Below, piece after piece: positions 17,266-54,574 of a stretch of 64,000 nt of DNA; the first letter of the stretch is position 1, and each line of letters begins with the position of its first letter. This DNA comes from a virus: the IMG/VR virus record IMGVR_UViG_3300017963_000020, positions 24,134 to 88,133 of that record, one strand, 5' to 3'. Both the position numbers and the translations under genes were made by a program. The notes under the pieces were generated by a model that was not told the origin of the DNA, did no database searches, and saw only the letters and a list, made by a program, of their open reading frames with translations.

Positions 17266-17771
17266 TATTTCGTCCTCCTATGTTCGGCTTCCAAACTCTT
17301 GTTCGCGTTCTCCAGAGCGTCCAACAGCTTGTTCACTCTGTGCATGACGTATTCGAAAACCCGAGCGAGCTCTGTGGCCTTCGCCTCGCGCATCCTGTGC
17401 TTCTTGCATCTCTTCTCGGCTTCAGCCTGGACCAGCTTGTCCGTGACTCGATCCACGTCTTCCATGCCGTTCAATCGTATATCAACCTCCTCTTCTGCGA
17501 TCTTTGCCTTCCTGTTTCCGTATGCCTTGTTCAACCCTCCTTCTGCCCGTCCAGCCTGAACAGCAAGAAAGACGTTCATCGCAGCTAGATTGATTTGATC
17601 CCGGGATAGGATATCCTTTTTGAAAGCCGACACCATGTCGGCAATTCCCATCCCCTGATACTTGCCGACAAGCTTCAGGATCTTTTTCAGGAACCTAAAC
17701 TCGTTCGGTTTGTTTTGGAAATCTTCCCAATCGATTTCCACGGGTTTTATATCAGACCTCTTCTTCGGCAT
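17265..17771 (-). CDS. hypothetical protein in replisome operon
   Basis: 168 residues, strongly helical and charged. No family is recognised. It starts inside the last 25 bases of dnaE and its TAA overlaps the clamp ATG (TAATG), so it is tightly coupled to both. A replisome accessory role is an inference from this position. Confidence 0.6.
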   Translation of the reverse strand: MPKKRSDIKPVEIDWEDFQNKPNEFRFLKKILKLVGKYQGMGIADMVSAFKKDILSRDQINLAAMNVFLAVQAGRAEGGLNKAYGNRKAKIAEEEVDIRLNGMEDVDRVTDKLVQAEAEKRCKKHRMREAKATELARVFEYVMHRVNKLLDALENANKSLEAEHRRTK

Positions 17772-20700
17772 GACTTATCCTCCATCAGCTCGCCGATCTT
17801 TTTTGTTATGTCAAAAACCTTGTCCTTTTCCGCATAGCACAAGATCCGATTCGTTCCCATGACTCTACCATTGACAAATAGAATGTTGAACGGTTTAAGT
17901 ATCGGCAGGAATTTCTCCTTCGCGCCTTTGTCGAAGTAGATGAACATATCGCCACGATGGTCCTGGAGCTTTACTACCATCGCGGACTTCCCTGACATTT
18001 TGATTTCTACGTTCAATATGATTCCAGATACATTGACACGTTCCCATCTATCGAATTTCTGTAGCTGTTGAGATGAGACGCAGTACCTTCCAAGCAAATA
18101 TTCCTTCACAGGTTCAAAGAAGAACGGATGCAGAAGTATGAAACCGAATGCGTCTACCGAATCCTCTACGAATGTTTTCTTCAGGGTAAATACTTGATCC
18201 TTCCGCACACTATTGAACGTTCGCTTGATGGTATTGCGGTCTGCGAAACAATCAAAGCATCCTGCCTGAATGAGTGCGACGACCTTGCCCTTGTGGACCT
18301 TCCCGCTGACCTTGTTCATGAAATCATTAAAAGAACTGAATGGCTGTTTCGACACGATCTCTTCGGCCGTCGGCCCCTTGATGCCTTTGATTTTGGATAG
18401 GCCGAAACGAATGCCCTTCTTTTCAATGCCGAACCCGATGCCCGACCTATTGATGTCCGGCCCGAATATCTTTAGTCCATACTGTCTTGCCTCGTTGATG
18501 TATCTATAAAGCTTATTCTTCTCAGATCCATGCTTCCTATCCTTTATCGTTCCTGTCGCTGTGTTAGAAAGGAGCGACACGAAGAATGGACCGGGATGAT
18601 AGTTCTTCAAGAATAGAACCTGAAAGAATAGGTAAGCATACGAAACGGCATGACTCTTATTGAACGAGTACTGTGTAAATTCGCCAATGATATCCCAAAG
18701 CCTTTTCGCATCGTCGCGCCCGATACGTTCGGCGCATCTCTTCATGAACTCCTTCCTGAACTTCTTTGCCTTCCTTTTGCTGAATATTTTCTTTGCAGCT
18801 AGCTTCCTGATATTGTCTGCTTCTACCAGCGAATACCCTGCTATCTTGTGCAACAGACGCATCACCTGTTCCTGATACACAAGAACGCCCCTTGTTTCTT
18901 TCAATGCCTTTTCAATCTCGTCGTTCTCTATTCCCATTCCTTCATGATTATGGAACCGCTCTACTGCTCCACTCGCCAAAGGACCAGGACGGTTGATAGC
19001 ATTCAAGGCAGCTATTTCGTAGAAGGTTCTTGGCTTAACCTTGCGAAGTAGCTTAGTCGCCGAATCAGTTTCAAACTGGAATCCGCCCGTCGTATTGCCC
19101 TTTCGAGCCTGATTCAGCAGCTTCTCGTCTGTCAAGTCAAGATCCCAGATCGATTCAGTATGGTCTTCGCCCTCGTGTTCCTTGACCAAATCCAAAGCAT
19201 CGCTGATAATGGAACAAGTATTCAGGCCAAGGATATCAAATTTAATAAGCCCAATCTCTGTCAGCTCCCTGCCTTTGAACCCTTCTGAATATGCAGATAC
19301 GATATCGCCTTTGACACGCTGAAGCGGAGCAAACTTATAGACAGGCTTCGGGGCAATGATTAAACCGCAAGGATGCACTCCTGCATTCCTAATCATTGTC
19401 GCGACTCGTCTTGCTACCCTGATCTCCTTCTTATGTTCATCCCAGAAATCTAATAGCAATCCAGACAGGTCTTTCCGTGCATCCTTCAACGAGCCAGTCC
19501 TATAGACTGCCGATGCGATTTCATTTATTGGTCGCTGAGGAAGCTTGAATACCCTACCGACATCCTTGAGAGCACCGACCTGACCGAACGTGCCGAAAGA
19601 AATAACCCGAGCGACTTTATTGTGTCCATACTTGTCTGCGATATAGGCCAAGACCCTGTCCCGTTTGTTTGCATCAAAGTCAAGGTCAATATCCGGCATA
19701 TCTACTCGGCTCTCGTTCAGGAATCGCTCGAAGATCAATCCATGTTTGATGGGATCGATTTTCGTAATCCCCAAAACAAAAGAAGCCAGAGACCCGGCGA
19801 CCGAGCCTCTGGCTGGACCGACAAAGATGTCGTTCTGTCTACACCATGACACGAGGTCCTTGACGATTAGGAAATAGTCGTGGAACCCGAGCTTGGATAT
19901 AATCTTCAGTTCCTTTTTCAATCTCCGCTCGTATATTGGCGTCTTCTTATAGAAATGGAACTGTTTGAATTCATGCTTGACCATCCGCTTGAATTCTGAA
20001 TGGGACATTCCCATATCAGGCAAGTGAAATGAACCTGTCGGTATTTCAAGGTCGCATTTATCAGACACTTCCTTCGTTGATCTAATTAGACGTTTGAATT
20101 CTGCCTTCGTATAATTAAATCCGAACTCGCTCGCTTTCTGCCAGAGCTCTTTCCCAGTCATTAAATACAGAGACCGAGCCTTATATGCGACCTCCTTCAA
20201 GCGATCGACATTCTTCTTGTCCCTTACGAGTAGGACGAAGTCTTGTATTTGTATATCCTCAGGATGAACATAGTGTGCATCCAGGGTCGGCAATACTTTC
20301 ACGCCGACCTCTTCTGCTACAGATACGAGCATAGCGTTGACGGGCTTCTGTCCTGCTATTTCGTTGAACTGGATTTCAATATAGAAATCATTTCCGAATC
20401 TATCCTTCCATTTTTCGGCCTCGTGTCTAGCTTGTTTTCGGCCTCGTGTCTTTGCAATGATTCCTCCCATGCAAGCCGAAGACACTATGAGGCCTTCTCC
20501 ATGCTCGAATATCTTCTCTGTCGTCGTCCTTGGCCTATAATAAAATCCATTGACATAGGCTTCAGACACGATCTTTAGCAGGTTCAGATATCCTTTGTAA
20601 TTCTTGGCGAGAAGGACGACGTGCCGATATTGTTCCTTCCTGCTCTTTGAATCGTCAACGTATGCTTCAACGCCGACGATAGGGTTGATTCCTGCCCTCT

Positions 20701-20860
20701 TGCACTCAAGATAGAATTCAAGCGATCCTGCGAGCGTACCGTGGTCCGTGATCGCAAGGGAAGGCATATCAAGGTCGGCAGCTCTCTTGACCAGAGGCTT
20801 GATCTGAGCGCAACCATCCAGGAGTGAGTAGTGAGTATGTTGATGCAGATTCACGAACAT
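17747..20860 (-). CDS. dnaE: DNA polymerase III alpha subunit (DnaE type)
   Basis: 1037 residues, a bacterial C-family replicative polymerase. An N-terminal PHP domain (HQHTHYSLLDG, then TDHG) is followed by the palm with GPARGSVAGS and the catalytic PDIDLDFD (about 395-402), fingers, a helix-hairpin-helix (GLSKIKGIKGPTAEEI) and a C-terminal OB domain. It is slightly shorter than E. coli DnaE (1160). It copies the phage genome with the phage clamp. No separate proofreading exonuclease is seen in the window; the PHP domain may proofread. Confidence 0.97.
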   Translation of the reverse strand: MFVNLHQHTHYSLLDGCAQIKPLVKRAADLDMPSLAITDHGTLAGSLEFYLECKRAGINPIVGVEAYVDDSKSRKEQYRHVVLLAKNYKGYLNLLKIVSEAYVNGFYYRPRTTTEKIFEHGEGLIVSSACMGGIIAKTRGRKQARHEAEKWKDRFGNDFYIEIQFNEIAGQKPVNAMLVSVAEEVGVKVLPTLDAHYVHPEDIQIQDFVLLVRDKKNVDRLKEVAYKARSLYLMTGKELWQKASEFGFNYTKAEFKRLIRSTKEVSDKCDLEIPTGSFHLPDMGMSHSEFKRMVKHEFKQFHFYKKTPIYERRLKKELKIISKLGFHDYFLIVKDLVSWCRQNDIFVGPARGSVAGSLASFVLGITKIDPIKHGLIFERFLNESRVDMPDIDLDFDANKRDRVLAYIADKYGHNKVARVISFGTFGQVGALKDVGRVFKLPQRPINEIASAVYRTGSLKDARKDLSGLLLDFWDEHKKEIRVARRVATMIRNAGVHPCGLIIAPKPVYKFAPLQRVKGDIVSAYSEGFKGRELTEIGLIKFDILGLNTCSIISDALDLVKEHEGEDHTESIWDLDLTDEKLLNQARKGNTTGGFQFETDSATKLLRKVKPRTFYEIAALNAINRPGPLASGAVERFHNHEGMGIENDEIEKALKETRGVLVYQEQVMRLLHKIAGYSLVEADNIRKLAAKKIFSKRKAKKFRKEFMKRCAERIGRDDAKRLWDIIGEFTQYSFNKSHAVSYAYLFFQVLFLKNYHPGPFFVSLLSNTATGTIKDRKHGSEKNKLYRYINEARQYGLKIFGPDINRSGIGFGIEKKGIRFGLSKIKGIKGPTAEEIVSKQPFSSFNDFMNKVSGKVHKGKVVALIQAGCFDCFADRNTIKRTFNSVRKDQVFTLKKTFVEDSVDAFGFILLHPFFFEPVKEYLLGRYCVSSQQLQKFDRWERVNVSGIILNVEIKMSGKSAMVVKLQDHRGDMFIYFDKGAKEKFLPILKPFNILFVNGRVMGTNRILCYAEKDKVFDITKKIGELMEDKSCRRRGLI

Positions 20861-47888: not shown

Positions 47889-50636
47889 CTATACGAAGGC
47901 GCGAGCCATATCCAAGTCATCAAGCTCGCGCTGATACCTTCGGATTTCGCGACCATCCAAGAAGATGCGGTTTTCAATCACGACACGAACTGGTCCGCCT
48001 CCTGCAGCTGGAGCAGCTCCTGTCGGCTCCCCTCGTTTGATCGCGTCGAACACATCTTTTAGATCTCCAGGACCAAGACCGCTCGGCAAGGGCATCACGA
48101 CTTCCGGCCTTCCTGTTTCTGCGAGTGCAGCTACAGTCGGCCTCGTTACGATGCCTCCATGCTGAAGCCCGATAGCTCCTGCGACTGTACCGATGATCCC
48201 GCTGACCGTCCCAATTCCCTTGTCCAATATATCAACGATAGCATCACGAACCCTGACAAGTGGATCGACCAGAGCCTTAACCCCACGAGTCATCCATGTG
48301 ATTCCCTTTATGATCCATGATATAACCTTGGCGAGCGGTTCCAGGGTATTTCGCACGACCCATCGTACGACCGTCCCGAATGCTTTCCAGAAGCCGACGT
48401 TCGCTCCGCCTCTACCAAAGACCGCGACACCGAGCTCGTCGAAAGCTGTGCCGAGTTCTTCCACGACTGGGGTCAATGGAGCGAATGCAGCTTCAATTTC
48501 CTGTACGACGATTTCTACTATTGCACCGACGACCGTAGCAGCGACGCCGATCAACTCGAACGCACGAGCGAAAGGCATCATAACAACGGTCATGACCGAC
48601 TTGAACAGCTTGCCCATCGGACCGACGCCTTTCATTGCATTGAATAGTCGGCCGAGAGGCTCGAAGATCATGCTGATTGCTTTTCGCATGGACTTCCAGG
48701 CATCACGAACTCCGCCGAGGTTTTGCTGCCATGCAGAAGCGAATATCTTCGCGGCGATTATCAGCCATCCTATCGGCGACATCAATACCAATAGAATTCC
48801 ATAGAACGCTTGAGCTGAACCCTTCGCGTTCCAGAATGCCCTTGCAACCTTCACGAGCAGGATCGTGAATACGATGATCGCCGTTATAATCAATAGAATC
48901 GGATTCGCCAGCATCGCAGCTGTCATGCCTCGAATCGCTCCGGTGAATATTCCGGATGCAGCTGCAGCTCCCTTCATTGCCGTTGATCCCATGATCGCAG
49001 CTTTTGCCTGTCCAAAAGACGCCCTGATGTTCCCCCATTTCAACATCGAATTTATTCTCGTCAATGTATTATTGATTCCGAGCGCGACATTATTTCCAAT
49101 CGTCGCGACCCTCTTTGCCCAAGCTGCCGAGACAGCTGCATAGGTGATAGAAGTGTTCTTTGAAATACCGATGCCGAGAATACGTTCAAGCCAGATCCTG
49201 ATCTTCATCTTTGCATTCGTCAGGTCTGTTTGCGTCAGCCTGAGCTTCTCGGCGAATATAGACGCGAGGACTGCTCCCCTTGTCATTCCTTCAATGCCGA
49301 ATATAAGCTTGGAGATCGCGAGATACGCGAACTTCGCCTTTGTTACCAGTCCAAGAGCAAGGTTCAATTTCATAAAGGCAGAACCGAGCACAAGGACGGT
49401 TCCTACGAGTCCTGTCAAGAAGACGACAGCTCCGACCAAGAGCATAATCACCTTCGTCGTTCTCGGGAACCACATCGTGAGCGTGATTAGCACGTTCAAT
49501 ATCTTCGTGAAGAATGAAACAGCCATCTTCAATGGACCGAGGAGCGGCGAACCGAGTCTCATTGCGAGCGTTTGAATTGAACCCATCATCAGCACAAGTC
49601 GGCCGATCAATGGTTCCAAGACAGCTTCGCGGAACTTAGCTGCCGTTCCAGATGCGTTCTTCAATTCGTTTTCCAGCTTTGCGAAATTCTCAGGACCCAT
49701 AGCGACGACGGCATTGAAGGCATTCATGCCTCGTGCGCCGAACAATGTCATGAGCGACAATGCCCTCTGTTCTTCTGTCGTTTTCCCAAGGGCATTCTGA
49801 ATCTCAAACATGAGCGTCGCCATGTCTTTGAAATTCCCGTTTGCATCCGTAGCAGATAGGCCGAGCTTCTGCAGCTCTGCCGTCGCCTTCGGTTGCATCA
49901 GGGCACGAATCGCCGATCGAAGTGTAGTCGCCGAGACAGATGCCTCTGCCCCTGTATTCCGCAGAGCACCGAGGATCGCGACGGTATGCTCGAATTCCTG
50001 TCCCATCGCCTTCGCGTTACCACCGACACGAGCCAGCATCACTTGAAGGTCTCTGGCTTGGATATTGGTCAGCTGTGTTGATCTGAGCAGAATGTCAACG
50101 ACCTTCGCTGTGTCTTTGGCTTCAAAGCCGAATCCCCTAACTCCTGCAGCTGCAGCTGAGGCAGCTCCCGCGACCCCGAGCTGGCCGAGCGAACCTGTAG
50201 CAAGGTCCAAGACAGGCATCAAGGCAGCTGTCGCCTCTCCTGCCGTAAAGCCAGCTGTCGCGAGTTCTTTTAGACCTTCTGTCGCCTGAGTCGGGCTCCA
50301 TCTGGTCTTGATTCCTGCTTCAACTGCAGCTGCAGTCAACGCCTTCAATTCCCCTGTCGTGGGGACGAGGATGGCCTCTACTCGTTTCATTCCTTCTTCG
50401 AAACGAGCAGCTTCGGCGGTCACGAGTGCGAGAGCCACAGATGCGCCAGCTGCCCCGATGAGAGCTACCCTTCCTGCCCTCGCCGCGACTTCCATTCGGA
50501 GCTGTGCTCTGGTCGCACGGTCGGTCGCCATAGACAACGTCTGCATTGATGCCGACGCAGCTGAAGCTGGACCCGACAGCCTATTGACCATCGAGAGTAC
50601 GACCCCGAGTCCCAAAGCTGTTCCGATTCCGGCCAT
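47889..50636 (-). CDS. tail tape measure protein
   Basis: 915 residues, Ala-rich. The N-terminal half (RFEEGMKRVEAILVP, ATEGLKELATAGFTAGEA, DLQVMLARVGGNAKAMG) matches TP901-type tape measures; several hydrophobic segments (about 395-430, 590-660) fit membrane-active regions. It sets tail length; at about 1.5 angstrom per residue the tail would be near 135 nm. It starts directly after the frameshifted chaperone. Confidence 0.92.
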   Translation of the reverse strand: MAGIGTALGLGVVLSMVNRLSGPASAASASMQTLSMATDRATRAQLRMEVAARAGRVALIGAAGASVALALVTAEAARFEEGMKRVEAILVPTTGELKALTAAAVEAGIKTRWSPTQATEGLKELATAGFTAGEATAALMPVLDLATGSLGQLGVAGAASAAAAGVRGFGFEAKDTAKVVDILLRSTQLTNIQARDLQVMLARVGGNAKAMGQEFEHTVAILGALRNTGAEASVSATTLRSAIRALMQPKATAELQKLGLSATDANGNFKDMATLMFEIQNALGKTTEEQRALSLMTLFGARGMNAFNAVVAMGPENFAKLENELKNASGTAAKFREAVLEPLIGRLVLMMGSIQTLAMRLGSPLLGPLKMAVSFFTKILNVLITLTMWFPRTTKVIMLLVGAVVFLTGLVGTVLVLGSAFMKLNLALGLVTKAKFAYLAISKLIFGIEGMTRGAVLASIFAEKLRLTQTDLTNAKMKIRIWLERILGIGISKNTSITYAAVSAAWAKRVATIGNNVALGINNTLTRINSMLKWGNIRASFGQAKAAIMGSTAMKGAAAASGIFTGAIRGMTAAMLANPILLIITAIIVFTILLVKVARAFWNAKGSAQAFYGILLVLMSPIGWLIIAAKIFASAWQQNLGGVRDAWKSMRKAISMIFEPLGRLFNAMKGVGPMGKLFKSVMTVVMMPFARAFELIGVAATVVGAIVEIVVQEIEAAFAPLTPVVEELGTAFDELGVAVFGRGGANVGFWKAFGTVVRWVVRNTLEPLAKVISWIIKGITWMTRGVKALVDPLVRVRDAIVDILDKGIGTVSGIIGTVAGAIGLQHGGIVTRPTVAALAETGRPEVVMPLPSGLGPGDLKDVFDAIKRGEPTGAAPAAGGGPVRVVIENRIFLDGREIRRYQRELDDLDMARAFV

Positions 50637-51646
50637 CTATTTCTCTTTCATTTGCCTTGCGATTTCCTCTGACCGTTCAACGGCATAGTCCATGAAGAAC
50701 TTCCGCTCGGCATCGGTCATCGCCCAGAGTTCACGATAGGACCATCCTTTGTAGATGTGACCTAATTCCGCGATCTCCCTCCACGTCTCCCGAAGCGACG
50801 CTGTCCCGCACTCGGAAGCAAAAAATCCGACGGGTCAACCCCATAGTCGAACGTTCTGTTGCAGGAATTGCATCGCACCGAACTGAAGACATCCGGTCCA
50901 GGCTGATTGTCCAGGAACTGGTCCATGATGGCGTCGCTGATCTTCGTACGAAGGCGATCGTAGAACTCGAAGTCCACGGGATCACCGTCGAAATCGATCG
51001 TGCAAGCTGCAAGGACAGCCATCGAGGAATCGTTGATGTTCCTGATCTGGTCCACCGACAATCCCTCTTCCTCGAATCCCCTTGCGAGTTTCAGCCTTGC
51101 CGTATGCCCGAAGGCCTCCACGACCAGGACCCATTCCTTGAGCGTGTCGTCCTTCTTGTATCCCGTGTCCTCGATCCGGACGGTCTTGATCTCGCTCGGT
51201 GCGGTGAAGATGTCCACCCGATTCCCACAGAAACCGCATTCCGAACGCTGGACGATTTCCGAGTCTTCGCCCTTCGTGACCTTCCTGATTGCGAGAACGC
51301 AAGCGGAACGGTCCGCCGAGTACATGGACCGAACCAAGACCTTCCTCTCTTGCTTTTCGTCGGCGAACTGGTAGTGAGGGAATCCGAGCACCAAAGCAAG
51401 AGAATGGGTCGTCAGTTTCCCAGGATGGTTGAGGATGTCCGGCCTACCGATTTTCCTTCGCACCTTGGGACCGAGCTCGCTGATCTGAACCTTCCTGTAG
51501 TAATTTCCGGCCAGATCCCACGAGCCGACGGGCAATTCGAAGTCGATCTTCTCATCGTCCAAGCTGCTGAACGCCGGGATGACCTCGGGAGCTTTGGTTT
51601 CTTCCTCTGCTCCTTGGTCCATTTCCGTACCGTGCTCCTCGTTCAT
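50637..51646 (-). CDS. tail assembly chaperone, -1 frameshift product
   Basis: Slippage at T TTT TTG (minus strand 50825-50819) moves the ribosome to the -1 frame, which is open for 60 codons and ends in TAG at 50637-50639, one base before the tape measure ATG. The extension contains a YKGWSYRELWAMTDAERKF stretch, typical of the T part of GT proteins that bind the tape measure. The slip site, the open -1 frame and the place just before the tape measure agree with the lambda G/GT arrangement. Confidence 0.8.
50762..51646 (-). CDS. tail assembly chaperone (zero-frame product)
   Basis: 294 residues. Two CxxC pairs (C137/C140 and C259/C262) suggest a zinc site, and the C-terminus is Arg/Gly-rich. 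In this position, just upstream of the tape measure, a tail assembly chaperone is expected; its zero-frame form would be the G protein and the frameshift form GT. Some larger phages carry similar zinc-binding chaperones. Start after AAGGAAGAAAAG. Confidence 0.75.
   Translation of the reverse strand: MNEEHGTEMDQGAEEETKAPEVIPAFSSLDDEKIDFELPVGSWDLAGNYYRKVQISELGPKVRRKIGRPDILNHPGKLTTHSLALVLGFPHYQFADEKQERKVLVRSMYSADRSACVLAIRKVTKGEDSEIVQRSECGFCGNRVDIFTAPSEIKTVRIEDTGYKKDDTLKEWVLVVEAFGHTARLKLARGFEEEGLSVDQIRNINDSSMAVLAACTIDFDGDPVDFEFYDRLRTKISDAIMDQFLDNQPGPDVFSSVRCNSCNRTFDYGVDPSDFLLPSAGQRRFGRRGGRSRN
50819..50825 (-). other. slippery heptamer T TTT TTG (-1 frameshift)
   Basis: In zero frame GAT TTT TTG CTT. 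Both tRNAs can re-pair one base back (TTT TTT). The -1 frame after it is open for 60 codons to the tape measure start. Confidence 0.8.
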
Positions 51647-51691: not shown

Positions 51692-51713
51692 TCCGGTCCT
51701 TCCTTAGACCGGA
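51692..51713 (-). terminator. 7-bp hairpin at the tube gene end
   Basis: TCCGGTC (51692-51698) pairs with GACCGGA (51707-51713), overlapping the stop of the tube gene. No U-run; possibly an mRNA stabiliser for a highly expressed gene. Confidence 0.4.
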
Positions 51714-52219
51714 CGCAGATCCAGCGGATCGGGCAGACCGCCCTCGTTCTGGATGGTCGCTGATTCCATCCAGACGTCCGACGAACCCGCATCGAGCGTC
51801 GGATGGCTGAGCTTGCTCGGCCAGCACTCGAAATAGGTCCAGCCCTTCAGACGTCTGTTGAAGTCGTCCATGAGCTGGATCTTGAGGGTTCTGCGGAATG
51901 CGAGCGCGGGATACTGCCCTTGCTTCTGCACGAGCTCCACTTGCGCTCTCCAGATTTGCAGGTCGTTCGACCGCGATTTCCCCCTGGAGAGAACGAGCTC
52001 CGTCGCCTTGTAGATCCCGGGAAGCTTCTTGGTGATTCGGTCGGTACCTTCTCGGTACTCCACGACCTCGCTTTCTTCCTCGAGACCTTCGATCGTCCGG
52101 AATCCAGCCCTCCAGGACCTGATCCCGACGCAGAGAACGCGAAAGCGAAATCCGACGTAGGGATCGAGTCGCTGTCCGGCCTTCTGTCCGGCTCCAGGAA
52201 CCGACAAAACGTGAGGCAT
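51704..52219 (-). CDS. tail tube protein (gp19-like)
   Basis: 171 residues. The YVGFRFRVLCVGI start, the GLEEESEVVEYREG segment and the LPGIYKATELVLSRG stretch match the T4-gp19/contractile-tube family. The protein polymerises inside the sheath. Good ribosome site (GGAGGATCGGTC). Sheath is directly upstream, tail chaperone downstream. Confidence 0.88.
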   Translation of the reverse strand: MPHVLSVPGAGQKAGQRLDPYVGFRFRVLCVGIRSWRAGFRTIEGLEEESEVVEYREGTDRITKKLPGIYKATELVLSRGKSRSNDLQIWRAQVELVQKQGQYPALAFRRTLKIQLMDDFNRRLKGWTYFECWPSKLSHPTLDAGSSDVWMESATIQNEGGLPDPLDLRPV

Positions 52220-52285: not shown

Positions 52286-54574
52286 CTACTGTTCCTCGAT
52301 CGAACGCTGTCCCCTCATGTTCGTCACGGTGAACAGGACCTTTTCGGCCGTCCCCACGACGTTGAATCCCATCTTCACCTTGAAGATTCCGCCCTGACGC
52401 TGAGCCTGAGGATTGATTCCCGACCCTGTGTAGACGTAGAACGCCTGATCGGAATTGTCCTCAGGCACGAACACGCCATCCTTCCAGAGGTCGTAGAGGA
52501 ACCCCTGGATCATGTCGTAGACGTCCTCGCTGAGGTCGTCGTTGTTCGGCTCGAACGGAATCCAGATCGAGTCGCCCAGGACGCTCTCTTCCACGAAGAT
52601 GGTCGTTCGCATGACGTGGATGAACTGTTGCGGTCTGCTCTCCACGAGCAGGGTTCTTGCCCCGAAGATCCGAATGCCGAATCCCGGGAAGTTCCGGATG
52701 ATGTTGACGCCTCTCGGGTTGAGCAGGAGCGAGGCATCGTCCCAGTCCACCGTCTTGTCGTCGGTGACCAATCCGGCCAGACCCTTGATCCTTTCGTTCG
52801 CCGGAGCTTTGTGCGTCCCCCTGTCTGCGGCGACTCTGGACCAGACTCCCATCACCCATCCTTCAGGCGAGTGATCCTGTTCCAGAGTGTACTCGCTTTC
52901 GGGGTCCAGGATGGTGATCCACGGGAAGTAGAGCGTTCCTCGCATGGACGAGATGTTGATGGTGTAGTCCCGCCATTCGATCGCCTCTTCCACGGTATCC
53001 ACCGACTGAGGAACCGAGGCGATATACATGGCGTGGAGACGAGCGTCGCAGTAGTCGATCCCGTTTTCGACCACGAGCTTGGACGTGACTCCGGGAGTGG
53101 CGATCATGCTGACTTCCCGGATGCCGTTGAACCTGTAGATGCCCGTCTCCGAACCCGGAGTGCTGACGCCGATGTAGTCGGAGTCCTGAGGCGTCTCGCC
53201 GTCCAGCCCGAAGGCCAGAGCGACGTTCTGCACGGGGAACGGCAGGTTCAGGAATGCCGGACTGTTCGACGGGTTCTGGTCCAAGACTTCCACGAGCTCG
53301 CTCTTGTTCGCCTTGCCCGACAGTCTCGTGTTGACATAGTTCAAGGCGTTCGTCGGTTCCATGGAGAGCTGCGGATGCGTCTCGAATGCGCCGACATCGT
53401 CCTGGACCGTGAGATCGAACTCGAAGGAGGTTGCGGGTGAATTGGCCGGGATCGGTGCGCCGAGCGTGATCGCGGCGAAGAAGATGACGTTCCCCGAAAC
53501 CTGCGTCACGAGCACGTTGACGTCGGTCGTGCCGTCGGTGATGTGGATCAGGCTTCCGACCCTTGCTCCCGAGGCATTGTTCAGGGTCGCCTGAGTCGCT
53601 CCGCTTGCGAGTGCCGACGTGATGACCGTGGAACAGGCATGGGTCGTCGCGGTCTTGACCACAGCTGCCGTCGTGTAGGACGCCAGACTTTTGGACTTGA
53701 ACTTGAGCTTCTTGTTGACCGTGTCGATCTGCCAGATGACGAACCATTGAAGGTTCGCGCCTTCCTCGATGATCGCCAGGTCGCCGATCTCGAAATCACG
53801 GATCGAATTGACCTGGACCTCGGTGGATGCGCCCGAAGCTGCAGCTGCGAGCGTCGTGGACGCCTTGAGCGTCGTGTACTCCAGAGCGTTTCCCCATGCT
53901 CCAGGGTTTCGAGCTGCGATCTTGACCGAGTGCGAACCCTGATCGGAATCGAATTCCCAGGAATCGGAAGTCGCAGGACCCGAGCCCGACGCGAGGTTCG
54001 TGGGACCCTGTGCGGTCACGACGCCAGCTCCTGTTCCGCTTGCGACGACGAGCTGCAGAGCGGTGAGGTGAGCGTTGACTGCGGCGACGACCTGAGCTGC
54101 CGTTGAGATGATCGCGCTTCCACCGTCGGTCGCGAGTGAGACGTCGATGTCGTATCCACCGACGGTCGGCGTGACCGTCACTCCCAGAGGCTGACTTGCT
54201 CCGCCCGGATCGGTCAGCTTGATGCGGATGCTGTTCCCCTCCGCTCCCGGATGCCTCGCCGTCCAGACGATTTCCGACGTTCCCGAGTCGGTCGTCAGGG
54301 TTGCGAAAACCTCCGGCCTGAGCACTCGCGACAGCCAGAGAGAGCGACCTTCGTTCACGAAGAATCCCCGGACGTGCTTCGGTCCCACGAACCCTCCGTA
54401 GAACGATCCGCACTTCCGCTCGAATTCCTCCCAGGAGGTCACGAAGATCGCTTTGTTCGTGTCCCCCTTTCTGGTTCGAAGGACCATGCCTCCAACGGAG
54501 ACCGGGACGCCTTCGATGGTTGGAGGATTGTCGAAACGCTCCTCCATGTTCAGCCCGACATGAAGTTCCGGCAT
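52286..54574 (-). CDS. tail sheath protein
   Basis: 762 residues. The N-terminal strand (GVPVSVGGMVLRTRKGDTNKA), several inserted beta domains between about 90 and 400, and the C-terminal conserved part (NPRGVNIIRNFPGFGIRIFGARTL, then the terminal MRGQRSIEEQ) identify a contractile sheath. It is longer than minimal sheaths, so surface domains are likely. It contracts on host contact. Followed by the tube gene. Confidence 0.93.
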   Translation of the reverse strand: MPELHVGLNMEERFDNPPTIEGVPVSVGGMVLRTRKGDTNKAIFVTSWEEFERKCGSFYGGFVGPKHVRGFFVNEGRSLWLSRVLRPEVFATLTTDSGTSEIVWTARHPGAEGNSIRIKLTDPGGASQPLGVTVTPTVGGYDIDVSLATDGGSAIISTAAQVVAAVNAHLTALQLVVASGTGAGVVTAQGPTNLASGSGPATSDSWEFDSDQGSHSVKIAARNPGAWGNALEYTTLKASTTLAAAASGASTEVQVNSIRDFEIGDLAIIEEGANLQWFVIWQIDTVNKKLKFKSKSLASYTTAAVVKTATTHACSTVITSALASGATQATLNNASGARVGSLIHITDGTTDVNVLVTQVSGNVIFFAAITLGAPIPANSPATSFEFDLTVQDDVGAFETHPQLSMEPTNALNYVNTRLSGKANKSELVEVLDQNPSNSPAFLNLPFPVQNVALAFGLDGETPQDSDYIGVSTPGSETGIYRFNGIREVSMIATPGVTSKLVVENGIDYCDARLHAMYIASVPQSVDTVEEAIEWRDYTINISSMRGTLYFPWITILDPESEYTLEQDHSPEGWVMGVWSRVAADRGTHKAPANERIKGLAGLVTDDKTVDWDDASLLLNPRGVNIIRNFPGFGIRIFGARTLLVESRPQQFIHVMRTTIFVEESVLGDSIWIPFEPNNDDLSEDVYDMIQGFLYDLWKDGVFVPEDNSDQAFYVYTGSGINPQAQRQGGIFKVKMGFNVVGTAEKVLFTVTNMRGQRSIEEQ

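Follow-up and report, generated by a model that had tools for sequence, protein, structure and literature searches.

For phage lambda, the tail assembly chaperone pair gpG/gpGT is encoded between the tail tube and the tape measure gene, and a −1 shift near the 3′ end of the chaperone gene adds a short extension that ends at the tape measure gene (Xu et al. 2004, reviewed in PMC5009743). The same 2016 review describes G-T frameshifting as widely conserved "except T4". Bacillus phage 0305phi8-36 encodes G and GT as two paralogous genes, gp143 and gp144, without a frameshift (PMC2147016). In a comparison of 26 T4-like genomes, cyanophage gp51 was found to have about 20% of the full length and gp51 was missing only in Aeh1; the word "frameshift" does not appear there (PMC3037559). 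No earlier report of a frameshift in gp26/gp51 or the baseplate hub was found in the open literature; subscription papers were outside the scope of this search and priority is unproven.

The window investigated here comprises 64,000 nt of the 88-kb virus record IMGVR_UViG_3300017963_000020. Pfam and PHROG matches gave the minus-strand order sheath, tube, chaperone, tape measure. Similar to lambda, the chaperone gene is thus located between the tail tube and the tape measure gene, as a G/GT system demands. A preliminary description had proposed a programmed −1 frameshift in this gene. The features of the locus are as follows.

52286–54574, minus strand: tail sheath protein (PF04984, 8.5e-11; phrog_23, 2e-41)
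51704–52219, minus strand: tail tube protein (PF06841, 5.6e-23)
50762–51646, minus strand: putative G-like tail assembly chaperone, zero frame, 294 aa, T4 gp26 family (ORF; PF12322 homologues; structure)
51227–51238, minus strand: first CxxC, residues 137–140 (invariant in 16 sequences)
50861–50872, minus strand: second CxxC, residues 259–262, 12 residues ahead of the slip-site Asp (invariant in 16 sequences)
50819–50825, minus strand: slippery heptamer T TTT TTG at codons D-F-L (sequence and conservation)
50765–50818, minus strand: end of the zero-frame G protein past the slip, 18 codons, predicted disordered (sequence; AlphaFold)
50787–50818, minus strand: predicted RNA hairpin directly 3′ of the heptamer, not common to relatives, role doubtful (folding z-score)
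50640–50819, minus strand: putative T extension in the −1 frame, 60 codons after the slip, gp51/DUF6760-like helical domain (sequence; pN/pS 0.39; profiles)
50637–50639, minus strand: TAG stop of the −1 frame, adjoining the tape measure ATG (sequence)
47889–50636, minus strand: tape measure protein (PF10145, 1.5e-34; tape measure PHROGs up to 1e-59)

Elsewhere on the minus strand of the window, a large DNA polymerase III alpha subunit (17747–20860; PF07733, 6.4e-76, PHP domain) and a radical SAM protein gene (690–2162; PF04055, 4.8e-07) were observed.

At the slip site the zero frame reads GAT TTT TTG CTT (D-F-L-L) and stops 18 codons later at 50764–50762. The position of T TTT TTG, described earlier as lying in the zero frame near the end of the chaperone gene, was confirmed to the base (50825–50819, minus strand). 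From the slip, the −1 frame comprises the 60 sense codons reported before, ASECGTASLRETWREIAELGHIYKGWSYRELWAMTDAERKFFMDYAVERSEEIARQMKEK; it continues beyond the zero-frame stop up to the TAG at 50639–50637, directly followed by the tape measure ATG at 50636. An in-phase heptamer near the 3′ end and a −1 frame open to the tape measure gene are what a G/GT layout requires. The tail was also said to be rich in Trp and Tyr, as expected of a GT protein; 3 W and 3 Y are indeed present among the 60 residues, but GT proteins are not defined by such a composition. Of the two CxxC zinc pairs, the pairs exist at residues 137–140 and 259–262, whereas zinc binding is only inferred; the invariance of the cysteines makes it plausible, without binding data.

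TTTTTTG is rarer in the window than expected from shuffles (3 observed, 13 expected) and occurs only once on the minus strand, the strand of the tail genes. Long ORFs, 25,648 codons in total, contain an in-frame T TTT TT at two sites. Since both the heptamer and the in-frame run are rare, and since site and tail are kept in every relative with an intact region, the slip site and the −1 ORF of the window are, judged by these sequence counts, not due to chance.

Direct searches with the window chaperone yielded no matches in IMG/VR or cultured phages, and none were obtained in IMG/VR with the window tape measure. Relatives of the chaperone family were revealed by searches with the tail tube. Counting near-identical contigs once, 15 distinct relatives were obtained (L002, L003, L004, L019, L022, L023, L024, L026, L027, L028, L029, L032, L035, L040, L041). 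At these D-F-L codons, each of them has either T TTT TTG or T TTT TTA, followed by a conserved −1 ORF of 59–73 codons. A further scan found the run in 14/14 loci, many of them the same contigs as before. An alignment of 16 sequences, as little as 20% identical to the window, shows no variation in the four cysteines or in D-F-L, and the Asp-Phe-Leu slip site lies 12 residues past the second CxxC in the window and its relatives. Beyond the zero-frame stop, the tail shows pN/pS values of 0.39 in the five closest sequences and 0.50 in a second clade, which indicates purifying selection on a protein-coding −1 frame. GC-rich relatives retain TTT TTG despite the rarity of these codons in their genomes; in L035, TTT accounts for 4% of Phe codons and TTA/TTG for 3% of Leu codons. 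The multiplied codon-usage probability of 2e-20 is not to be read as a P-value, given the relatedness of several loci and a mis-indexed row. A stop in the −1 frame or the absence of a slippery run, either of which had been named as a refutation, was sought in the near relatives with an intact region and neither occurs. Short or broken runs were found only in the distant Ackermannviridae and in groups that look like +1 types.

These findings support the proposed programmed −1 frameshift at T TTT TTG, by which a helical domain of 60 residues (T) would be fused to a minority of the gp26-family chaperone (G). We put the probability of this reading at about 0.92; layout and conservation support it, while the fusion protein itself is unobserved and no expression data exist on slippage or its rate. 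The majority of ribosomes would complete the 294-aa G protein. In some ribosomes, tRNA-Phe and tRNA-Leu would re-pair one base back, from TTT TTG to TTT TTT, resulting in a 336-aa GT fusion that ends directly ahead of the tape measure gene. If lambda gpG/gpGT is a guide, the tape measure would be coated by many copies of G and few of GT, with T recruiting tube subunits. The sequence itself shows the two frames, the conservation of the slip site, the selection acting on the tail and the homology to gp26 and gp51/DUF6760, whereas slippage, product ratio and the assignment of the tape measure as partner of G and of the tube as partner of T are inferred by analogy. Some observations speak against the proposed frameshift. 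After the slip, TTT TTG requires a wobble mismatch at the Leu tRNA, and in Ackermannviridae the −1 tail persists although the run is short or broken. Further, a conserved stimulatory RNA structure was sought and not found: the z-score was −2.87 for a 99-nt stretch in the window and −0.64 to 0.29 in four relatives, and a search of Rfam gave no match.

The identity of the two protein parts goes beyond the preliminary description. With 16.8 bits (0.0056) the window chaperone itself remains below the PF12322 gathering cut-off of 24.5, but its homologues lie well above it (L035 52.6 bits, 6.6e-14; L022 66.0 bits, 5.1e-18; L026 43.7 bits, 3.3e-11), and on these profile scores the chaperone belongs with the T4 gp26 family. 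The AlphaFold model (pLDDT 85) is ordered to about residue 280 and disordered beyond, which puts the slip where the folded domain ends. Among the viral structures closest to this model are T4-like baseplate hub assembly proteins (1.8e-12, 4.2e-12) and the SP-15 hub subunit (3.2e-10), in line with a fold common to the chaperone and gp26-type hub assembly proteins. Among solved structures no significant match was found; the HK97 chaperone 2ob9 ranked fourth with E 1.5. Neither a sequence match nor a significant structural match to a lambda-type chaperone was obtained. In contrast to lambda gpG/gpGT, G in the window is a gp26-family protein with an inferred zinc ribbon, and T is gp51/DUF6760-like.

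The model of the −1 tail consists of three predicted helices (pLDDT 83) without a significant match among viral structures, and the window tail gave no DUF6760 (PF20546) match in Pfam. Since only the profile of window-type tails recognizes a DUF6760 member, the L044 protein (1.2e-6 among 983 ORFs), we name the tail DUF6760-like and not a member. L044 (3502–4043) is a contractile-tail locus of a Verrucomicrobiales MAG, in which a CxxC protein is followed by a −1-frame DUF6760 protein (PF20546, 2e-16). This protein resembles the window tail in its position directly 3′ of a CxxC protein; it differs in that its overlapping frame has no T run at the junction. No ATG lies ahead of it, and it may be frameshifted at a G-rich run. 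Comparison of window-type with T4-related tail profiles gave E 1.4e-4 at a probability of 53%, a significant but modest link. The window-type chaperone profile alone does not convincingly recognize T4 gp51 (probability 1%); the connection therefore runs via intermediates. Taken at sequence level, the chaperone is a T4 gp26 homologue, its −1 tail is gp51/DUF6760-like and this slip is a general feature of T4-related phages.

In 12 cultured T4-related phages (S-RSM4, S-RIM44, S-CAM9, P-TIM68, ACG-2014f, S-SSM6a, phiN3, LPCS28, Yut2, D480, IC12, CC2), gene 26 ends with T TTT TT(C/T) 1–2 codons before the stop, and reading in the −1 frame continues without a stop into gp51. Aeh1, phage 65 and VmeM-32 share this gene end, which is therefore found in 15/15 T4-related phages outside Ackermannviridae. 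The joint predicted from the slip in S-RSM4 is GLANFF followed by RIALFHNTLEGYYK. In Aeh1 (AY266303; L163 1213–2159), gene 26 has TTTTTTC one codon ahead of its stop, and a −1 tail of 58 codons, which is not annotated, overlaps the start of the next gene.

In each of 80 cyanophage-type loci from IMG/VR, exactly one codon separates TTTTTTC from the gene 26 stop. These loci are the closest matches to S-RSM4 and not a random sample, and PF12322 genes were only partly sampled. The −1 tail comprises 57–66 codons in 77 of the 80 and is shorter in 3, consistent with short contigs; elsewhere in the same genes an in-frame T TTT TT occurs 6 times in 19,144 codons. Since the slip ends gene 26 in all 15 phages and all 80 contigs, the "short gp51" of cyanophages appears to be largely a −1 extension of gp26. 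Similar to the window, gene 26/short gp51 of cyanophages (PMC3037559) combines a slippery run near the gene end with a −1 tail that ends at the next gene. In comparison, cyanophages use TTTTTTC with one zero-frame codon after the slip and often an ATG just past the stop, whereas the window type uses TTTTTTG/A with 9–19 codons.

Such start codons leave some room, although little, for the −1 ORF being a separate small gp51/DUF6760-like gene with its own start or translational coupling and without any fusion. In many cyanophages gp51 is annotated as starting at an ATG that lies at least 2 bases downstream of the gene 26 stop, and an ATG or GTG occurs within 8 codons after the slip in 50 of the 80 loci, while 30 have none; separate initiation of the tail may thus also occur in cyanophages. 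A separate gene would also fit L044, where the frame of the DUF6760 protein overlaps and no T run is present. However, the −1 frame of the window contains no ATG, GTG or TTG until tail codon 34, inside the conserved domain, and Aeh1, phage 65, CC2, LPCS28 and S-RSM4 also lack an early start codon in the tail. Conservation of the tail begins near codon 4 and the relatives have no common early start codon. T TTT TT moreover stays in codon phase in genomes that seldom use its codons. Independent initiation would not account for these data.

Transcriptional slippage on the six-T run, which would change the frame in the mRNA and not on the ribosome, is hardly tenable: the run is a homopolymer and extends to seven T in two relatives, but almost every genome has exactly six, placed in phase for a tandem −1 heptamer, and six T are short for transcriptional slippage. 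A sequencing or assembly error that split one gene could have entered a single metagenomic assembly as an indel, but is already refuted by conservation, the same frame relation being found in independent assemblies and finished cultured genomes.

With regard to T4, an expected adjacency of genes 26 and 51 was ruled out, as the two genes are divergent. Both gp26 and gp51 of T4 match PF12322, and BLASTP between the two gave 2e-6. In the profile of the 12 fusions, the alignment of T4 gp26 stops at the joint, and that of T4 gp51 crosses it and extends to near the tail end. The T4-related tail profile matched T4 gp51 with 2.5e-5, and with 1.1e-5 as the first rank among 983 ORFs, followed by small ORFs of Ackermannviridae and SagM and then by SP-15 (0.016) and BRock (0.07). 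Like the window, these hub assembly chaperones thus show PF12322 homology and collinearity of gp51 with the fusion; unlike the window, T4 has divergent genes, no slippery run and the fusion as a separate gene. Gene 26 of T4 ends in TTC TTT, so its run is lost. Since T4 gp51 is collinear with gp26 plus tail, gp26 and gp51 look like a two-gene G/GT pair, and in the simplest reading of these alignments a pair of paralogues appears to supply the two products in T4, G from gene 26 and GT from gene 51. gp143/gp144 of 0305phi8-36 provide a published precedent for such an arrangement.

Two groups depart from the −1 run. The Ackermannviridae LIMEstone1, Se_AO1, May and Kuja have the tail in the −1 frame with a short or broken run. 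In Se_AO1 (L064 1917–2102) and May (L066 1989–2165) the gp51-like −1 ORF is unannotated, with ATT replacing the ATG of LIMEstone1. In four Streptomyces phages (BRock type), SP-15 and SagM-GXN1 (L045, L046, L047, L048, L051, L052; ends of gp26-like genes), a gp51-like small ORF in the +1 frame is open back to TTT C. This suggests a +1 shift at the same place, which is a weaker inference. The ORF is unannotated in pSt2308 and SagM-GXN1.

We consider it probable that the −1 shift joining gp26 to a T domain is ancestral in the T4 superfamily. The "short gp51" of cyanophages would then be largely a gp26 extension and the gp51 of Aeh1 would be hidden in the −1 frame; T4 would have swapped the frameshift for a duplication (gp26 = G, gp51 = GT), and Streptomyces and SP-15-like phages would shift by +1 at this position. 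In the wider view, this is a G/GT system belonging to the T4 superfamily, with the frameshifting itself unmeasured. If gp26/gp51 are G/GT, one rule would cover both, and the roles would be testable in T4 itself. If true, many phage genomes would carry a missing or mis-started tail gene.
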